Source of the DNA: Bacillota bacterium
Lineage (GTDB): Bacteria; Bacillota; Clostridia; Saccharofermentanales; Fastidiosipilaceae
Length of the DNA: 43,504 nt
Direction of reading: 5' to 3'
Assembly (NCBI GenBank): GCA_030057555.1
Contig: JASGUU010000038.1
Span: forward strand, 1 to 43,504
Below the pieces are notes generated by a model, which saw only the letters and a program-made list of their open reading frames with translations, was not told the origin of the DNA and did no database searches. Positions 1 through 43,272 of the stretch are shown in pieces. The position numbers were made by a program, and so were the translations under genes. Every line of letters begins with the position of its first letter. Position 1 is the first letter of the stretch.

Positions 1-109
1 AACCCGTCCTCGCGGACTAAGGCTCCAAGGCTATGTACCGGCTGGGCGCTACCCCTTTACCAGGTGAGGAATTTCACCTCACTATCTCCCTTGCACCGAA
101 CTGGCGCAC
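1..109 (-). mobile_element. Group II intron, 5' end (partial, runs off the left edge)
   Basis: Read on the minus strand, the sequence begins GTGCGCCAG at 109 and continues with a GTGAGG-TGAAATT-CCTCAC stem-loop. That matches the layout of a group II intron start: a GUGCGNC-like 5' end followed by a short domain I stem containing GUGAAA. The independent intron remnant at 42602-43272 has the same arrangement (GTGCGCC, then GGGG-TGAAAGT-CCCC). The reverse transcriptase and catalytic domains V/VI would lie outside the window, so whether the copy is intact is unknown. The assignment rests on motif resemblance only; another structured RNA is possible. Confidence 0.5.
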
Positions 110-221
110 GCCAAATCATTTTTTGGAAAACTCTTCGTTTTGACCAGAAACGGCCCCTTTGTGGTCAAGATCGCGAGTAATCCAAATTGTCGTTAGGATT
201 TCTCTTCGTTTTGACCATCAG
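110..221. repeat. Cluster of three family-C palindromic repeats
   Basis: The core CTCTTCGTTTTGACCA occurs at about 131-146 and 203-218. A diverged inverted copy (GTGGTCAAGATCGCGAG) lies between them at about 161-177. The inverted copy and the right-hand copy match over 16 of 22 positions, so the segment can fold into a long hairpin. A fourth copy lies at 36031-36070 in reverse orientation, behind the HAD phosphatase gene. The left copy ends exactly where the intron-like sequence begins. I see no coding potential. Confidence 0.6.
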
Positions 222-308
222 AAAGCCGCCAGCTGCTTTTCTCCCCCTGTCAGCCGTCCTCCTGGCATGCTCACCCGCTTCCCGACATTCGTGACGCGCA
301 CCCAAAGG

Positions 309-12208: not shown

Positions 12209-12274
12209 TTGGTGAGCGGCAAAGTACCACTCGCAGCTGATTTGGAAGTTGTTTGTTTCAACATGCGTACGAAC

Positions 12275-12424
12275 GCAATTTTTGTCCAGCCTTGGACAAT
12301 TTTTCCGCTCCTGCCCGATTTCGGGGCACCAGCGGATTTTTTGGCCACTTTCTGGACAATTTTTCCGCTCCTGCCCGATTTCGGGGCACCAGCGCAATTT
12401 TTGTCCAGCCTTGGACAATTTTTC
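12275..12424. repeat. Family-A 60-bp tandem repeats made of two alternating palindromes
   Basis: Two and a half units of exactly 60 bp (12275-12334, 12335-12394, 12395-12424). Each full unit holds hairpin 1, TTGTCCA/TGGACAA with a 4-nt loop (12282-12299, and 12401-12418 in the half unit; one arm mutated to TTGGCCA at 12341-12347). Hairpin 2 is CGCT-CC-TGCCC / GGGCA-CC-AGCG (12306-12334 and 12366-12394), perfectly self-complementary except for a symmetric internal mismatch of CC opposite CC on this strand, GG opposite GG on the other. Because the unit is 20 codons long, reading frames stay open across it, but I see no gene signals. It lies between the 3' ends of dapL and ftsY. Confidence 0.85.
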
Positions 12425-31041: not shown

Positions 31042-32049
31042 CTACTTCTTCTGCCGCGTGATTCTTCTCGCGAGGACTGCCAGCAACACGCCGCCCGCCA
31101 GCAGGAGTATGAGAGCCAGCCACCACTGCTGACCGTCACCCCGCCCGGTTCTGGGCAGAGAGTCGGTGGACTTCGTTTCCGTTACGGGCACTGTGCCTGC
31201 GGTCTCGCTGGCCGTTGACTCAGCCACGGGATTCTGCGACGATGGCGCCTTGATCTCGATCATGGAGCGGGCTGTGCCGGTTGTGGAAACGATCTCCACC
31301 TGATGCTTGCCGACGCCGAGACTCTTCAGCCAGGCGTGCTTGAACGTAATGATCGTCGATCCTTCTCTTACATCGTAATGAGCTCTGTCTACCTCAACTC
31401 CATTAAGCCTGACACATATGAAGTCCTCGACTCTGGCATTTGAGATGAAAACAGCGGGCTCAAGAGAATCCATGAACCAGAGAGGAGTCTCCCGAATTAT
31501 CCTGATTTCCTTCAGACCGGTCGGTATGTAGATACCATCGGACAGCCCAGGTTCTGAAAGATCCGGGTAGTCGATGGAAGGTACAGGCTCGGACGGGGTC
31601 TCCCTGATCGTTGTGGGGGTGGCCTGAGATTCCTCCGGGACGATGAGGCTGTGATCAGGTTCCCAGCTGCTGTCCGGATTTGTGGGATCCGGCAAGGTGG
31701 CCGGCGCTGAATGTTCCTCTTCTGAAGTTGTCGGGTCGTTCGGGATATACTGCGAGCTTACCGAATGTGAGCCCTGGGGAGCGGTCGTAGTTGATGACTC
31801 GGGGGTCGAAGAATCGTTCGGGATATACTGCGAGCTTACCGAATGTGAGCCCTGGGGAGCAGTCGTAGTTGATGACTCAGGGGTCGATGAACCGATCGGG
31901 GAATCCGGCGAAAACCCTGGATCCTCGTTGCTGGTCTGAGCACCGCCATTGTTGGAAGGCAGTGCCAGCACTGGCTGAAAAAACGACAATACCAGTGCCA
32001 GCAGGGTCATGACAATCAGCATGGCTGCCGGCTTACATTGTTTCTTCAT
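31042..32049 (-). CDS. Sortase-anchored (LPxTG) cell wall surface protein
   Basis: A 335-residue secreted protein. It has a signal peptide (about 1-30, MKKQ then a hydrophobic core ending PVLA) and a Pro/Ser/Thr-rich stalk with two identical 26-residue repeats (about 54-79 and 80-105, PESSTTTAPQGSHSVSSQYI within each). An Ig-like X2-type domain follows at about 180-280 (LNGVEVDRAHYDVREGSTII, then LGVGKHQVEIVSTTG). The sorting signal is LPRTG (298-302), a transmembrane helix and RRITRQKK. The start is the ATG after AGGAGGT. Its binding partner is unknown. Codon and GC use look lower than in neighbouring genes, suggesting it is accessory. The right edge of the window encodes the end of a similar protein. 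Confidence 0.85.
   Translation of the reverse strand: MKKQCKPAAMLIVMTLLALVLSFFQPVLALPSNNGGAQTSNEDPGFSPDSPIGSSTPESSTTTAPQGSHSVSSQYIPNDSSTPESSTTTAPQGSHSVSSQYIPNDPTTSEEEHSAPATLPDPTNPDSSWEPDHSLIVPEESQATPTTIRETPSEPVPSIDYPDLSEPGLSDGIYIPTGLKEIRIIRETPLWFMDSLEPAVFISNARVEDFICVRLNGVEVDRAHYDVREGSTIITFKHAWLKSLGVGKHQVEIVSTTGTARSMIEIKAPSSQNPVAESTASETAGTVPVTETKSTDSLPRTGRGDGQQWWLALILLLAGGVLLAVLARRITRQKK
31736..31891 (-). repeat. Two 78-bp tandem repeats inside the LPxTG gene
   Basis: Units 31736-31813 and 31814-31891 differ at only a few bases and encode identical 26-residue stalk segments. This is a recent duplication, and copy number probably varies between strains. Confidence 0.9.
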
Positions 32050-32340
32050 ATGTATGTACCTCCTGCATGTAATTCTGCAGCTGTGCCGGACGCTGCCAAC
32101 CTGAAACAGTTCAAATACATCGAAGTCTCGATCATCGATCCTGACTGTCAACCTGAAATTATTATACATAATGTATTAATAGTCTGGGTTAACTCTCCAT
32201 TCGTCTCCAACAAATCCACAGCAGCAAATGGTCGTGCGGTGTCTCTTCGCCATGAAAGCAGATGACGCAATCTGGCGGCAGGGGTAGAATTCCGGCTGGC
32301 GTCAGTTTCCCTGCATCAAGACCCGGAAGGTTGCATATAG
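32050..32340 (-). promoter_or_regulatory. AT-rich upstream region of the LPxTG gene
   Basis: A perfect -10 TATAAT on the minus strand (32166-32161) lies in an AT-rich near-palindrome (ATTATACATAATGTATTAAT). It lacks a clear -35 at 17 nt. It would give a leader of about 105 nt. The rest (32170-32340) shows no gene; a partial family-B repeat (CCGGAAGGTTG) appears at about 32325. Confidence 0.4.
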
Positions 32341-32547
32341 ACGCGGAAGGTTGAAAAATTGAGCAGAATGGGCCTCGAGATGTGCAGAATTTCAAGTTTC
32401 CGCGCGTTATGGACGCGGAAGGTTGAAAAATTGAGCAGAATGGGCCTCAAGATGTGCAGAATTTCAAGTTTCCGCGCGTTATGGACGTGGAAGGTTGAAA
32501 AACTGAGCAGAATGGGCCTCGAGATGTGCAAAAATTCAAGTTTCCGC
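32341..32547 (-). repeat. Family-B 72-bp palindromic tandem repeats behind the AEC transporter
   Basis: Three units (32341-32412, 32413-32484, 32485-32547) are nearly identical; the third is clipped. Each can fold on the minus strand: CGCGGAA..TTGAAA pairs with TTTCAA..TTCCGCG, leaving a loop of about 30 nt. A second palindrome forms across unit borders (TTCAAGTTTCCGCG against CGCGGAAGGTTGAA). The array begins directly after the transporter stop codon, so it would be the 3' end of that mRNA. The unit is 24 codons long and frames stay open, but there is no start signal. Confidence 0.85.
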
Positions 32548-32548
32548 T

Positions 32549-33481
32549 CTAGACCACCAGCGGCACGAAGCGCTTCAGCAGCTCCATGATGAGGTAGATC
32601 GCCGGAATGAAAAGCAGCATCGAATGCACGACGGCGGCGGAGGCGAGCTGGGGATCCCGATTGTAGCGCTCGGCCAGGATGGCGCTCATGGCGGCGCTGG
32701 GCATCGTCGAGAGAATGGTGCAGAGCCAGATAACGAAAGGATCCAGTCTGAGCAGCAGAAGTATTCCGAAAAGCAGCAGGGGAACAACGAGAAGGCGCAG
32801 GAAGGAGAGCAGCCAGCAGCGCCAGTCGCGGATCAGGATGGAGAGCGGACTCTCCGCGATGAGGGCACCGACGATCAGCATGCTGAGCGGGGTCGAGAGG
32901 CTGCCGAGCATGGTGAGGGCATCGTGCAGGATCAGCGGCAGCCGTATCTGGAAGCCGAAGAGCAGCAGCATGGCGGCGGTGGCGATGTTTGCCGGCCGCA
33001 GCAGAACCGTTCGCAGACTGGTCACCGTGCCGCGGAAGAGCTTTTCGCCGGCCGTGAAGAGGGCGGTGTTGAAGAACAGCGTCATGATGGCCGCGTAGAA
33101 GAGCGCCTCCTGGCCCAGCAGGGCCGTGATCAGCGGGAAGCCCATAAAGGCGATGTTGGGGAAGGTCAGCGAGATGGTCATGACCAGCCGCTCATCCTCT
33201 GAGAAACGCGGCAGAGAACGAAAGAAGCGGTAGATGAGATAGAAGCCGATGGTGTAGTAGGCGGCTGAGAAGGCTGAAACCTGGGCCAGACGGATGAGAT
33301 CCTCTGTACGCATCTCCATGCGCGAGGCGGCGATGATGCCGGCCGGCAGGGCGATGTTGAGGATGATGGTCGAAGTCTGCTGCTGCGTTTCCTGCGGATA
33401 CAGTCCCGTACGGCGGGCCAGATAGCCGACTGCGGCGATGACAAGCAGGATGAACAGCTGGCTAAAAAGTGCGTTCGGCAC
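32549..33481 (-). CDS. AEC (auxin efflux carrier) family transporter
   Basis: Membrane transporter of 310 residues with about ten hydrophobic helices in two five-helix halves: the first opens FILLVIAAVGYLARRTGLY, the second starts near the central ILLRPANIATAAMLLLF loop. The SLTFPNIAFMGFPL motif is typical of the family, whose members export organic acids such as malate. The substrate is unknown; a malic enzyme is encoded nearby but not in the same operon. The start is a GTG at 33481 with GGGGGAGGGG 5 nt upstream, overlapping the rnhB/yraN 3' end by 20 nt. The family-B repeats follow the stop at once. Confidence 0.88.
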   Translation of the reverse strand: MPNALFSQLFILLVIAAVGYLARRTGLYPQETQQQTSTIILNIALPAGIIAASRMEMRTEDLIRLAQVSAFSAAYYTIGFYLIYRFFRSLPRFSEDERLVMTISLTFPNIAFMGFPLITALLGQEALFYAAIMTLFFNTALFTAGEKLFRGTVTSLRTVLLRPANIATAAMLLLFGFQIRLPLILHDALTMLGSLSTPLSMLIVGALIAESPLSILIRDWRCWLLSFLRLLVVPLLLFGILLLLRLDPFVIWLCTILSTMPSAAMSAILAERYNRDPQLASAAVVHSMLLFIPAIYLIMELLKRFVPLVV

Positions 33482-34469
33482 GTTGCCCCTCCCCCATTTC
33501 AATGGGTACGATGCGCAGACCGGCCACCTGGCCGTCCGTTGCGAGTTCGACCAGTGCCGCGGCAAAGACGATGCGCCGGCAGACGAAATTTTCCTGATCC
33601 CGAAGCCAGGCGAGCGCGAGGTGTTCCATGCGCCGGACCTTGTCGCCTGTCAGAGCTTCCCCGGCCCGGGCGAAGGAGCCCTCCCCGCTTCTGGCCTTCA
33701 CCTCGACGGCGAGAAGCGTCGTGCCGCGGGCGGCGATGAGATCGAGGTCCCCGATTCCCGGCTGGCTCCAGCGCCGGACGAGCACCCGCCAGCCACGCGC
33801 CTCCAGCAGATTCGCCGTATCGTCTTCCGCTCCGCTGCCGGCAAGCAGGGCCAGCCGCCGCCGGCGCCACTTGTCGAGGAAGCTGGGGCGATGAATGGCC
33901 GAGGGGCCATGTTCGTCGAGTGCCTCCCGATGGGCGGCGGTGCCGTAGCCCATGTGGCGTGCAAAACCGTACTCGGGATAGAGCGCGTCATATTCGCGCA
34001 TGCGGGCGTCGCGTGTGACCTTGGCCAGGATGGAGGCGGCCGCGATGGACTCAGAGAGGCGATCCCCATGGATGAGGGGCTCATGCGGAATATCAAGCAG
34101 TCCTGTGAGCGCGACGGCATCCGTCAGGGCGAAGTCCGCAGGCGGGTCCAGGGCAGAGATCGCCCGCACCATGCCGCGGCGGGTGGCGCCGAGGATGTTG
34201 TAGCGCTCGATCTCCTCCACGGAAATCTCGACAACCGCACAGGCATCCGCCCGCTCACGTATCTCGGCGGCGAGCTTTTCGCGGCGCTTCGCCCCGAGAC
34301 GCTTCGAGTCGTCGATGCCCTTGATGCCATGCCCTTCCGGCAGGATGCAGGCCGCCACGAGCAGCGGGCCGGCGAGCGGGCCGCGGCCCGCCTCGTCGAC
34401 ACCGCAGACGGCGCGATAGCCTGCCGCCTCGAGGCGGCGCTCATGGAGGCGCGGATCGTGGATCGTCAT
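33462..34469 (-). CDS. rnhB: Fusion protein: ribonuclease HII + YraN (UPF0102) nuclease-like domain
   Basis: One 335-residue frame holds two proteins that are normally separate. Residues 1-205 are RNase HII: D25-E26 in VDEAGRGPLAGP, a third acid near LTDAV (D117), D154 in AKVTRD, and the closing HRPSF. Residues 213-335 are a YraN domain of the PD-(D/E)xK type: an upstream acidic residue (about 215), GDLDLIA (D241/D243) and VEVK (E256, K258). Both active sites look intact. There is no stop, frameshift or new start between them. rnhB and yraN are neighbours in many Gram-positive genomes, so a deletion of the gap would explain the fusion. Its ATG overlaps the rbgA stop (ATGA). Confidence 0.93.
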   Translation of the reverse strand: MTIHDPRLHERRLEAAGYRAVCGVDEAGRGPLAGPLLVAACILPEGHGIKGIDDSKRLGAKRREKLAAEIRERADACAVVEISVEEIERYNILGATRRGMVRAISALDPPADFALTDAVALTGLLDIPHEPLIHGDRLSESIAAASILAKVTRDARMREYDALYPEYGFARHMGYGTAAHREALDEHGPSAIHRPSFLDKWRRRRLALLAGSGAEDDTANLLEARGWRVLVRRWSQPGIGDLDLIAARGTTLLAVEVKARSGEGSFARAGEALTGDKVRRMEHLALAWLRDQENFVCRRIVFAAALVELATDGQVAGLRIVPIEMGEGQRAERTF

Positions 34470-35931: not shown

Positions 35932-36030
35932 AGCTTTTTTCGTACCGGGATGCACGTCAGGGGAGTCGATAAGCGGATGAGCATACCCGGAGCACGGCTG
36001 GCAAGGGGAGAAAAAGCAGCTCATGGATTC

Positions 36031-36070
36031 CTGGTGGTCAAAACGAAGAGAAATCCAAGAAGCGATTTTG
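36031..36070 (-). repeat. Family-C repeat copy behind the HAD phosphatase gene
   Basis: GGTCAAAACGAAGAG on the plus strand followed by AAATCC, AAG and GATTTTGC matches the copies at 110-221 over about 40 bp, including the flank that abuts the left intron. It lies 18 bp after the HAD stop. Next to it is a perfect 12-bp palindrome, ATTTTGCAAAAT (36065-36076). Confidence 0.65.
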
Positions 36071-36087
36071 CAAAATACCTGCTGCCC

Positions 36088-42601: not shown

Positions 42602-43272
42602 CGGTCTATCACGGTCGGGATGCCCACAGTGCTCTGGTTTTGCCGTTTTCCTTCGGGATTCGCACCCGGCGCGCCTTTGTTGGCTTTCACGCGTTTGAGC
42701 GCCCGTGTCAGGTTTTCCCACGTCAGGATCTCCTCCAGCATTCCTTCTTCCTGCTTCGCGTCGTTGGTGGTATCCGTTTGGACCATCCTTCGTGACTCGC
42801 ACACTCCTGCCGTCCCTTCCCGTTCCGCGGTCTGTTCTGGCAGCAAGTCCCACATCGTGAGTTGGCTGTGTTTTATCTTGTCACTTCCGATAGTCGTCAT
42901 TGACCTCCACCTCATCTGGTTCGGCCTTCACGTAACTTCTCCCGCTACTATGACCTCTGCTAACTTCTCATAGTTCGTTGTTACTGCTTGTTCGCCTATG
43001 AGACCTCCCGGGTAAGGTGCTTCATCTTTCTGTCCATTTACCTGCTGCATTTACACTCTCGGTTCCGGGTGACTTTCGGGTTTGACTTGTCATGCAGTCT
43101 TGCCCACCTCGATGTGCCTGATGCAGTTCGTGTCCCTCAGGCCGGACTTGTGCCTTGGGCTTCCTTCAGATTCCGCCTCGCGACAGACACCCTTGCCCTT
43201 GGCTTGCACTTGGTCGTCACCTACCCGTGCAGGGGACTTTCACCCCCATATGAAGCGCCATGCCCGGCGCAC
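42602..43272 (-). mobile_element. Truncated group II intron remnant inserted behind a terminator
   Basis: Minus strand starts GTGCGCCGGGCATGG at 43272, followed by GGGGGTGAAAGTCCCC and a long structured domain I region with no gene of its own. The intron-encoded protein begins near 42900 and stops being recognisable after about 100 residues. The element ends at about 42602, where helicase sequence takes over, so domains II-VI are absent and it cannot splice. Insertion a few bases past an 11-bp terminator stem is the hallmark of bacterial class C introns. Confidence 0.8.
42605..42900 (-). pseudogene. Gutted group II intron reverse transcriptase/maturase ORF
   Basis: The frame reads LTWENLTRALKRVKANKGAPG, the conserved start of group II intron RTs. 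It then jumps through about ten residues (ANPEGKRQNQ) to STVGIPTVIDR, a motif that in intact proteins lies about 60 residues further on. The YADD catalytic region, maturase X domain and endonuclease are all missing. It represents an internal deletion plus a 3' truncation. Confidence 0.8.

Follow-up and report, generated by a model that had tools for sequence, protein, structure and literature searches.

Interrupted-stem inverted repeats in tandem past an AEC transporter gene: one locus of a probable genus-specific, BIME/REPIN-like intergenic family

The window, by which we mean the whole stretch of 43,504 nucleotides that was analysed, carries a gene for an AEC-type membrane transporter on the minus strand (32549..33565; Pfam Mem_trans PF03547, E=1.8e-33). 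Its stop codon (32549-32551) abuts a tandem array. Tandem Repeats Finder places the array at 32336-32547, with a period of 72, 2.9 copies and 95% matches. In a repeat search the copies start at 32336, 32408 and 32480, and identity to the first copy is 97% for the second and 89% for the third. The three 72-bp tandem units occupy 32336-32407, 32408-32479 and 32480-32551, and the repeat proper stops at 32547. The repeat finders, the open reading frame and its Pfam match bear out the three-unit array that the first-pass annotation had described next to the transporter stop codon. Other features of the window include an open frame with RNase HII and UPF0102 domains at 33462-34469 and, near the contig end, group II intron domains on the minus strand at 42923-43187 (Rfam RF01998, RF02001).

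At the base level, the array consists of inverted arms, R and F, which alternate and are separated by an inner linker X of 11 nt and an outer linker s of 15 nt. The R arms, of the GCGGAA-NN-TTGAAA... type as read on the sequence, lie at 32343..32365, 32415..32437 and 32487..32509. The F arms (TGTGCA...TTTCAA-NN-TTCCGC) lie at 32381..32403, 32453..32475 and 32525..32547, the last of them ending 1 bp short of the AEC stop codon. A partial R-arm remnant, CCCGGAAGGTTGCA, is found at 32322..32335. The 72-bp unit of the first-pass annotation corresponds to R-s-F. Tight hairpins are formed by an F arm, 11 nt and the R arm that follows (F1 and R2 at 32381..32437, with the centre dinucleotide unpaired; F2 and R3 at 32453..32509).

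Units had been predicted to fold on their own as well as across their borders, and both kinds of fold are found. Single 72-nt units starting at 32336, 32408 and 32480 give z-scores of -2.8, -2.7 and -2.0 on the plus strand and -3.0, -3.3 and -0.55 on the minus strand, so that five of the six single-unit folds lie below shuffles and one, that of unit 32480 on the minus strand, is no better than shuffles. The 63-nt hairpins across unit borders reach z-scores of -4.8 to -6.0 (four folds in the window), and the entire array folds with a z-score of -6.2 on the minus strand. Plus-strand energies are -19.2 to -22.9 kcal/mol within units, and -23.3 and -24.0 kcal/mol across borders.

The host genome is a 2.9 Mb MAG of 90 contigs with 96% completeness. 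Allowing up to 3 mismatches, it contains 82 hairpins of the pattern TTCAANNTTCCG-N13-CGGAANNTTGAA; the reversed-pattern control gives 0. Together with the folds, these counts place the array far beyond chance and show that it is not limited to the AEC locus; the family is multi-copy and palindromic, as had been proposed. In the stretches taken, the 82 hairpins and one more with 4 mismatches (83 in total) are grouped in 27 arrays, 22 of which hold at least two hairpins. The count of copies is probably too low, since six arrays (on C30, C71, C58, C73, C41 and C83) are found no more than about 500 bp from the end of a contig. A covariance-model search of the host genome scored 150 of 1368 candidates, and the pattern-match count of 82 is used here instead. 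Low-scoring BLAST matches of 14 and 17 nt inside genes of L055 and L056 are not hairpin copies. A search of the window, L036, L044 and L114 arrays against Rfam gives nothing at the gathering score.

The geometry of the arrays is strict. The arms are inverted and 23 nt long, with F reading TGTGCANNNTTTCAANNTTCCGC and R its inverse. The inner linker X measures 11 nt in a short form and 91-92 nt in a long form, and the outer linker s 13-16 nt. All 56 steps from hairpin to hairpin are 70-72 (71 in 46 cases, 72 in 8 and 70 in 2), and in the first set of loci the step from arm to arm is 26 in 64 of 66 hairpins. Genome-wide the usual unit is F-X-R, since 24 of the 27 arrays begin with F at the left and close with R at the right. 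The window array is the sole case with R and F as outer arms, and the remaining two arrays are bounded by two F arms and by two R arms, respectively. Units are homogeneous within a locus, with a mean identity of 87% within arrays (132 pairs) versus 71% between arrays (3189 pairs, best orientation), though a few unit pairs drawn from separate arrays reach 97%.

None of the 27 arrays of the host genome lies inside a predicted gene. Twenty adjoin at least one gene 3' end, four lie between two 5' ends, and three near contig ends show a 5' end only. Copies are thus neither scattered within coding regions nor confined to the AEC locus, and the intergenic, mostly 3' position proposed in the first-pass annotation holds. 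For the 22 arrays with both neighbours known, the genes are convergent in 7 cases, codirectional in 11 and divergent in 4. When gaps with at least two arms are compared with those without arms, the host genome has 7 convergent, 14 codirectional and 5 divergent gaps versus 13, 41 and 23 (chi-square p=0.4), and a sister species (G009) has 13, 10 and 1 versus 3, 8 and 5 (p=0.02). Convergent gaps are enriched when both species are pooled (20/50 with arms versus 16/93 without; Fisher p=0.004), but not significantly in the host genome alone (Fisher p=0.27). In codirectional gaps the repeats are closer to the upstream stop codon in 12 of 14 cases in the host and 7 of 10 in the sister. The orientation of the array to the adjacent gene is mixed: among 11 arrays that could be judged, 4 are in the same orientation, 5 in the opposite one and 2 are unclear. 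The flanking genes are ordinary, and no transposase family is matched among 30 flanking proteins (Pfam, E<=1e-8). Gene calls come from a codon-usage script, which missed at least one open reading frame, at 31042-32169 of the window. Its product, predicted to be secreted, contains a 78-bp repeat twice in frame and, at the C-terminus, an LPRTG motif, which we take to resemble an anchor motif. Together with 7o5b (B. subtilis) as the best PDB match of Ffh, this motif makes Bacillota the probable phylum of the host.

In the sister species, whose genome was the one other of the genus to be searched, the family has a different form. Its genome contains one short-form hairpin, compared with 82 in the host, and 153 arms (79+74; control 0), which mostly read TTTCGC where the window reads TTCCGC. 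Sister stretches were taken from the contigs of 100 exact arms out of the 153, a choice that favours well-kept copies; in these stretches 36 of the 42 long F-R pairs enclose a core of 91-92 nt. Between long-form units R and F are 14-16 nt apart, and the period is about 153. The core (for example in L131:2087-2223, and in other G009 copies) contains nested inverted TGCATAAATATTCA-like boxes. The host genome has six long-form pairs.

Beyond these two genomes the family was not recovered. Two of the 148 genomes in an order-wide search match, both from this genus, and the family was not found in 10 genomes of other genera in the same bacterial family. As the order-wide search used stricter filters, with 36 candidates a genome, and the covariance-model search of the host scored 150 of its 1368 candidates, weak relatives could be missed. 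Viral contigs give 0 matches for both patterns, and plasmids and phages give none. A wider pattern scan, from which records close to the window may have been missing, picked out four contigs, from Acidobacteria, Spirochaetaceae, Armatimonadetes and Chloroflexi MAGs; on reading the sequences we judged them to be unrelated palindromes. A literature search made without the organism name, which is weak evidence, found no report of these repeat sequences; the main text of PMC12306157 (RepRanger) names neither RAYT nor tandem repeats. In the genomes sampled, the repeat family is restricted to one genus.

The window family is accompanied by others of like design. A 60-bp palindromic family (window 12269-12424) has 58 BLAST matches in the host and at least 115 in the sister; four further genomes of the bacterial family give no match. 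A second 71-bp palindromic family (window 100-260, CCAAAT...TTTTGACCA, with an inverted copy at window 36004-36071) has at least 124 and at least 150, respectively, and none in 10 genomes of other genera. An 82-bp palindromic family (L040:4329-4498) has 7 BLAST matches in the host and at least 146 in the sister, and by eye shares a TTTGCACA...TGAGCAAAATTT part with the window family. In all three, as judged by eye, a GC-rich tight hairpin alternates with an AT-rich imperfect one. BLAST and inspection therefore agree with the earlier proposal that one genome holds several families of this kind. Hairpins at L051:3995-4070 and L052:3970-4085 have by eye a like inner part (TTGAAAAATTGAGCA...) and another, TTATACAC-like, outer stem, a combination whose sequence suggests module swapping.

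Occupation of gene ends differs between the two species. Orthologues in the sister were sought for 13 of 18 chosen proteins, one of which had no close orthologue, leaving 12 3' flanks. Own and sister proteins are 82-97% identical in 11 of the 12 matched segments. All 12 compared flanks bear an array in the host genome, and the counts of re-occupation cover only such flanks: in the sister, two carry a long form (FmdE and ClpC), one a degenerate copy (adenylyltransferase), six another palindromic family (NUDIX, sulfatase, MatE, GH31, SufB and GH109), and three (AEC, MocA and MFS) show no recognised palindromic repeat within about 520 bp. Assignments to the 82-bp and 60-bp families are backed by BLAST, and those at NUDIX and SufB were made by eye.

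The pairing between arms follows a distinct pattern. Arms pair through the conserved 6-mers TGTGCA, TTTCAA and TTCCGC, and the 3- and 2-base blocks between these are mostly unpaired. In the tight hairpins of the host genome the centre dinucleotide varies (CC, GG, GC, GT and rarer ones). It is equal between arms in none of the 27 host arrays, where permutations give a mean of 6.9 (p=1e-4). Pairing between arms is also lower than in shuffled combinations (77.5 versus 83.0%, on 35 units; each of 500 shuffles reached at least the observed value). This anti-covariation rules out covariation as support for an RNA structure.

The perfection of the hairpins depends on loop length. None of 194 short-loop pairs (79+60+4+51, both species) has both mismatch blocks closed, versus 6 of 48 long-loop pairs. 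The difference gives Fisher p=5e-5 pooled and 0.007 within the sister, values that are optimistic because pairs within one array are not independent. The six pairs with both blocks closed are all among the 42 long-loop pairs of the sister; since all six long-loop pairs of the host are imperfect too (0/6), the contrast rests on the sister. Of 51 short-loop pairs of the sister, 15 have the same centre dinucleotide in both arms, and the 3-nt block then differs. An unbroken stem of at least 16 bp is found in none of the 194 short-loop pairs versus 8 of the 48 long-loop pairs, all 8 being among the 42 of the sister. In the tight hairpins of the host no unbroken stem exceeds 9 bp, and no short-loop pair has one longer than 15 bp.

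Two explanations for conserved mismatches have been put forward for REP elements. In PMC3733652, mismatched REP pairs are suggested to escape the nuclease SbcCD, and the minimum stem is cited as between 8 and 16 bp. According to PMC8266576, TnpA-REP needs two conserved mismatches in E. coli REPs, which points to recognition instead. Because the mismatched bases vary here and some long-loop pairs have no mismatches, we favour the nuclease reading over recognition. Against it, 12 of 51 sister short-loop stems are unbroken over 12-15 bp, inside the range cited for SbcCD.

The first-pass annotation had named a linked REP-associated transposase as something to look for. Such a link is not supported: the RAYT domain (Y1_Tnp, PF01797) has 0 matches in the host's own 96%-complete genome, and the sister contains one broken remnant. 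In a control search the same domain is matched in 5 of 14 named genomes. The remnant, of an IS200/Y1 transposase, lies at L164:1501-1734, between arrays of a 76-bp GTTGTGTCAG family and of a 60-bp family. The arms themselves differ from REPs as well. Folded alone, 7 of 8 exact arms reach 0 to -0.4 kcal/mol, on a par with shuffles; the other, an R arm of L036, reaches -2.7 with a z-score of -2.0. Stretches offset a little from the arms behave similarly. Within 6 nt outside the hairpins, GTAG is found at 1 and CGTC at 1 of 166 hairpin ends. On the features tested, the array is not a member of a RAYT-linked REP family.

The stability of the hairpins, seen in the folds of the window array, and the position of the arrays at gene 3' ends would fit bidirectional transcription terminators or 3' mRNA stabilisers that are kept for their function, a reading that we consider unlikely. 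The mark of an intrinsic terminator is a GC hairpin with a T run straight after it. Terminator-like sites exceed shuffles at the L035 array (5 versus 1.6) and are present at two hairpins of the L036 array and at one short stem in the L034 array, and a sister family at L164 looks by eye like tandem intrinsic terminators. However, such sites are absent from six of the nine arrays scanned (window, L031, L039, L041, L044 and L045). A longer terminator-like hairpin lies between stop codon and array at ClpC (12 pairs, readable by eye in the sister too) and at the sulfatase gene (17 pairs). The arrays are not conserved at orthologous gene ends, and the mixed orientation of the elements to the gene also counts against this function. 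Some hairpins may terminate transcription, but in appearance the arrays do not match the terminators usual for the adjoining genes. With spacer orientation to the gene mixed, a strand-specific RNA is likewise unlikely.

The long form raises another possibility, namely that the family is a MITE, non-autonomous, related to a DDE transposon and bounded by terminal inverted repeats of 23 bp; the long form of 137-138 bp would then be the mobile one and the 71-bp form a deletion derivative amplified in tandem. Sister long forms do have the order F-core-R, as terminal inverted repeats would, with perfect 23-bp ends in 4 of 42, and 11 long-form copies are single, without further arms beside them. Yet no target-site duplication is seen by eye in the 11 single copies, and flanks are too diverged for an empty-site alignment. 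The 30 flanking proteins scanned include no transposase Pfam match (E<=1e-8), nor an autonomous partner sharing these ends. For MITEs, moreover, an arrangement in tandem with linkers of fixed length is unusual. We regard this origin as improbable.

The conserved 6-mers could alternatively mark tandem DNA-binding sites for a chromosomal protein, with a role of the gyrase, IHF or ArgR type. The TGCATAAATATTCA-like boxes of the long-form core presumably resemble the ArgR box, which would favour such a role. An M20 peptidase is one of 10 genes scanned beside the host's own long forms, and an amino acid kinase gene lies beside one short-form hairpin; both protein families include arginine enzymes. 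The core is lost from the short form, however, the other named genes beside the host's long forms are unrelated to arginine, and turnover is fast, which makes a binding-site function very unlikely in our judgement.

The switch between two pairings that the first-pass annotation envisaged, with units pairing alone or across borders to toggle the AEC mRNA, is extremely improbable: both pairings exist, but they are similar in energy, the arms show anti-covariation, orientation to the gene is mixed, no 71-bp array is found within about 520 bp after the AEC gene of the sister, and the same repeat adjoins unrelated genes. A role in AEC expression is unnecessary to explain the array. Of the earlier interpretation as a whole, the multi-copy, palindromic nature, the 3'-end bias and the several families stand; the linked REP transposase does not, and the RNA switch is weak.

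We conclude that the array is probably one locus of a genus-specific, non-autonomous, BIME/REPIN-like intergenic repeat that is tolerated past gene ends. Copies would colonise further intergenic sites at the DNA level, probably in the form of single-stranded hairpins, and would then expand locally through unequal exchange or slippage. They would persist mostly past stop codons, because insertions there may do least harm. Perfect short-loop palindromes would be lost, since hairpin nucleases such as SbcCD would cut them, and arm pairs with interrupted stems would persist. Neither an insertion event nor a target duplication nor a mobilising enzyme was identified across the two genomes compared and the 30 flanking proteins scanned. 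More tentatively, gene 3' ends in this genus may be seeded and re-seeded, by a system independent of RAYT, with several palindromic families of the same design, which are swapped at the same site between species, with cleavage by a hairpin nuclease limiting stem length; we see this wider reading as a possibility, and a minority one.

BIME-like repeats are of an ordinary kind. What is unusual is the setting: there are several families, they turn over fast, hairpin perfection contrasts between loop lengths, and no intact RAYT domain was found. REP/BIME dynamics are usually ascribed to RAYT transposases; here, in what is probably a Bacillota genus, dense BIME-like arrays occur all the same. In addition, short- and long-loop arms of one family constitute a natural test of the suggestion, made in PMC3733652, that mismatched pairs persist by escaping hairpin nucleases.

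As in BIME-2/REP arrays of E. coli and other bacteria (PMC2817692, PMC8266576), short inverted units alternate with regular spacing, in tandem and between genes, and are species-specific; the copy number here is high in one species (82 versus 1 short-form hairpin, and 2 of 148 genomes). E. coli REPs keep two stem mismatches, much like the mismatch-bearing arms described here (same sources). Each REP, however, is itself palindromic, usually with GTAG, whereas here the arms pair mainly with each other. The bases at the mismatch also vary, so that what seems to be kept is the mismatch as such and not a fixed bulge.

REPINs, as characterised in PMC3116915, likewise combine two inverted arms and a linker into one hairpin unit, and some form tandem clusters of near-identical units. 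They differ in being RAYT-associated and mostly singlets, whereas 22 of the 27 loci here have at least two hairpins. In GTAG/CGTC REP heterodimers the arms of a pair often differ, as they do here, and PMC3733652 reports that no dedicated transposase was found for CGTC REPs. Those heterodimers differ in sequences and tags; the repeats described here allow a comparison of short- with long-loop pairs inside a single family. BOX and SPRITE elements of Streptococcus pneumoniae, as described in PMC3049150, are similarly modular or tandem and enriched between convergent genes, and SPRITE has no clear transposase. By the same description, BOX is set apart by its tandem boxB modules, which are not alternating inverted arms. 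Neisserial intergenic mosaic elements, also mentioned in PMC3049150, resemble the present arrays in being composite intergenic repeats.
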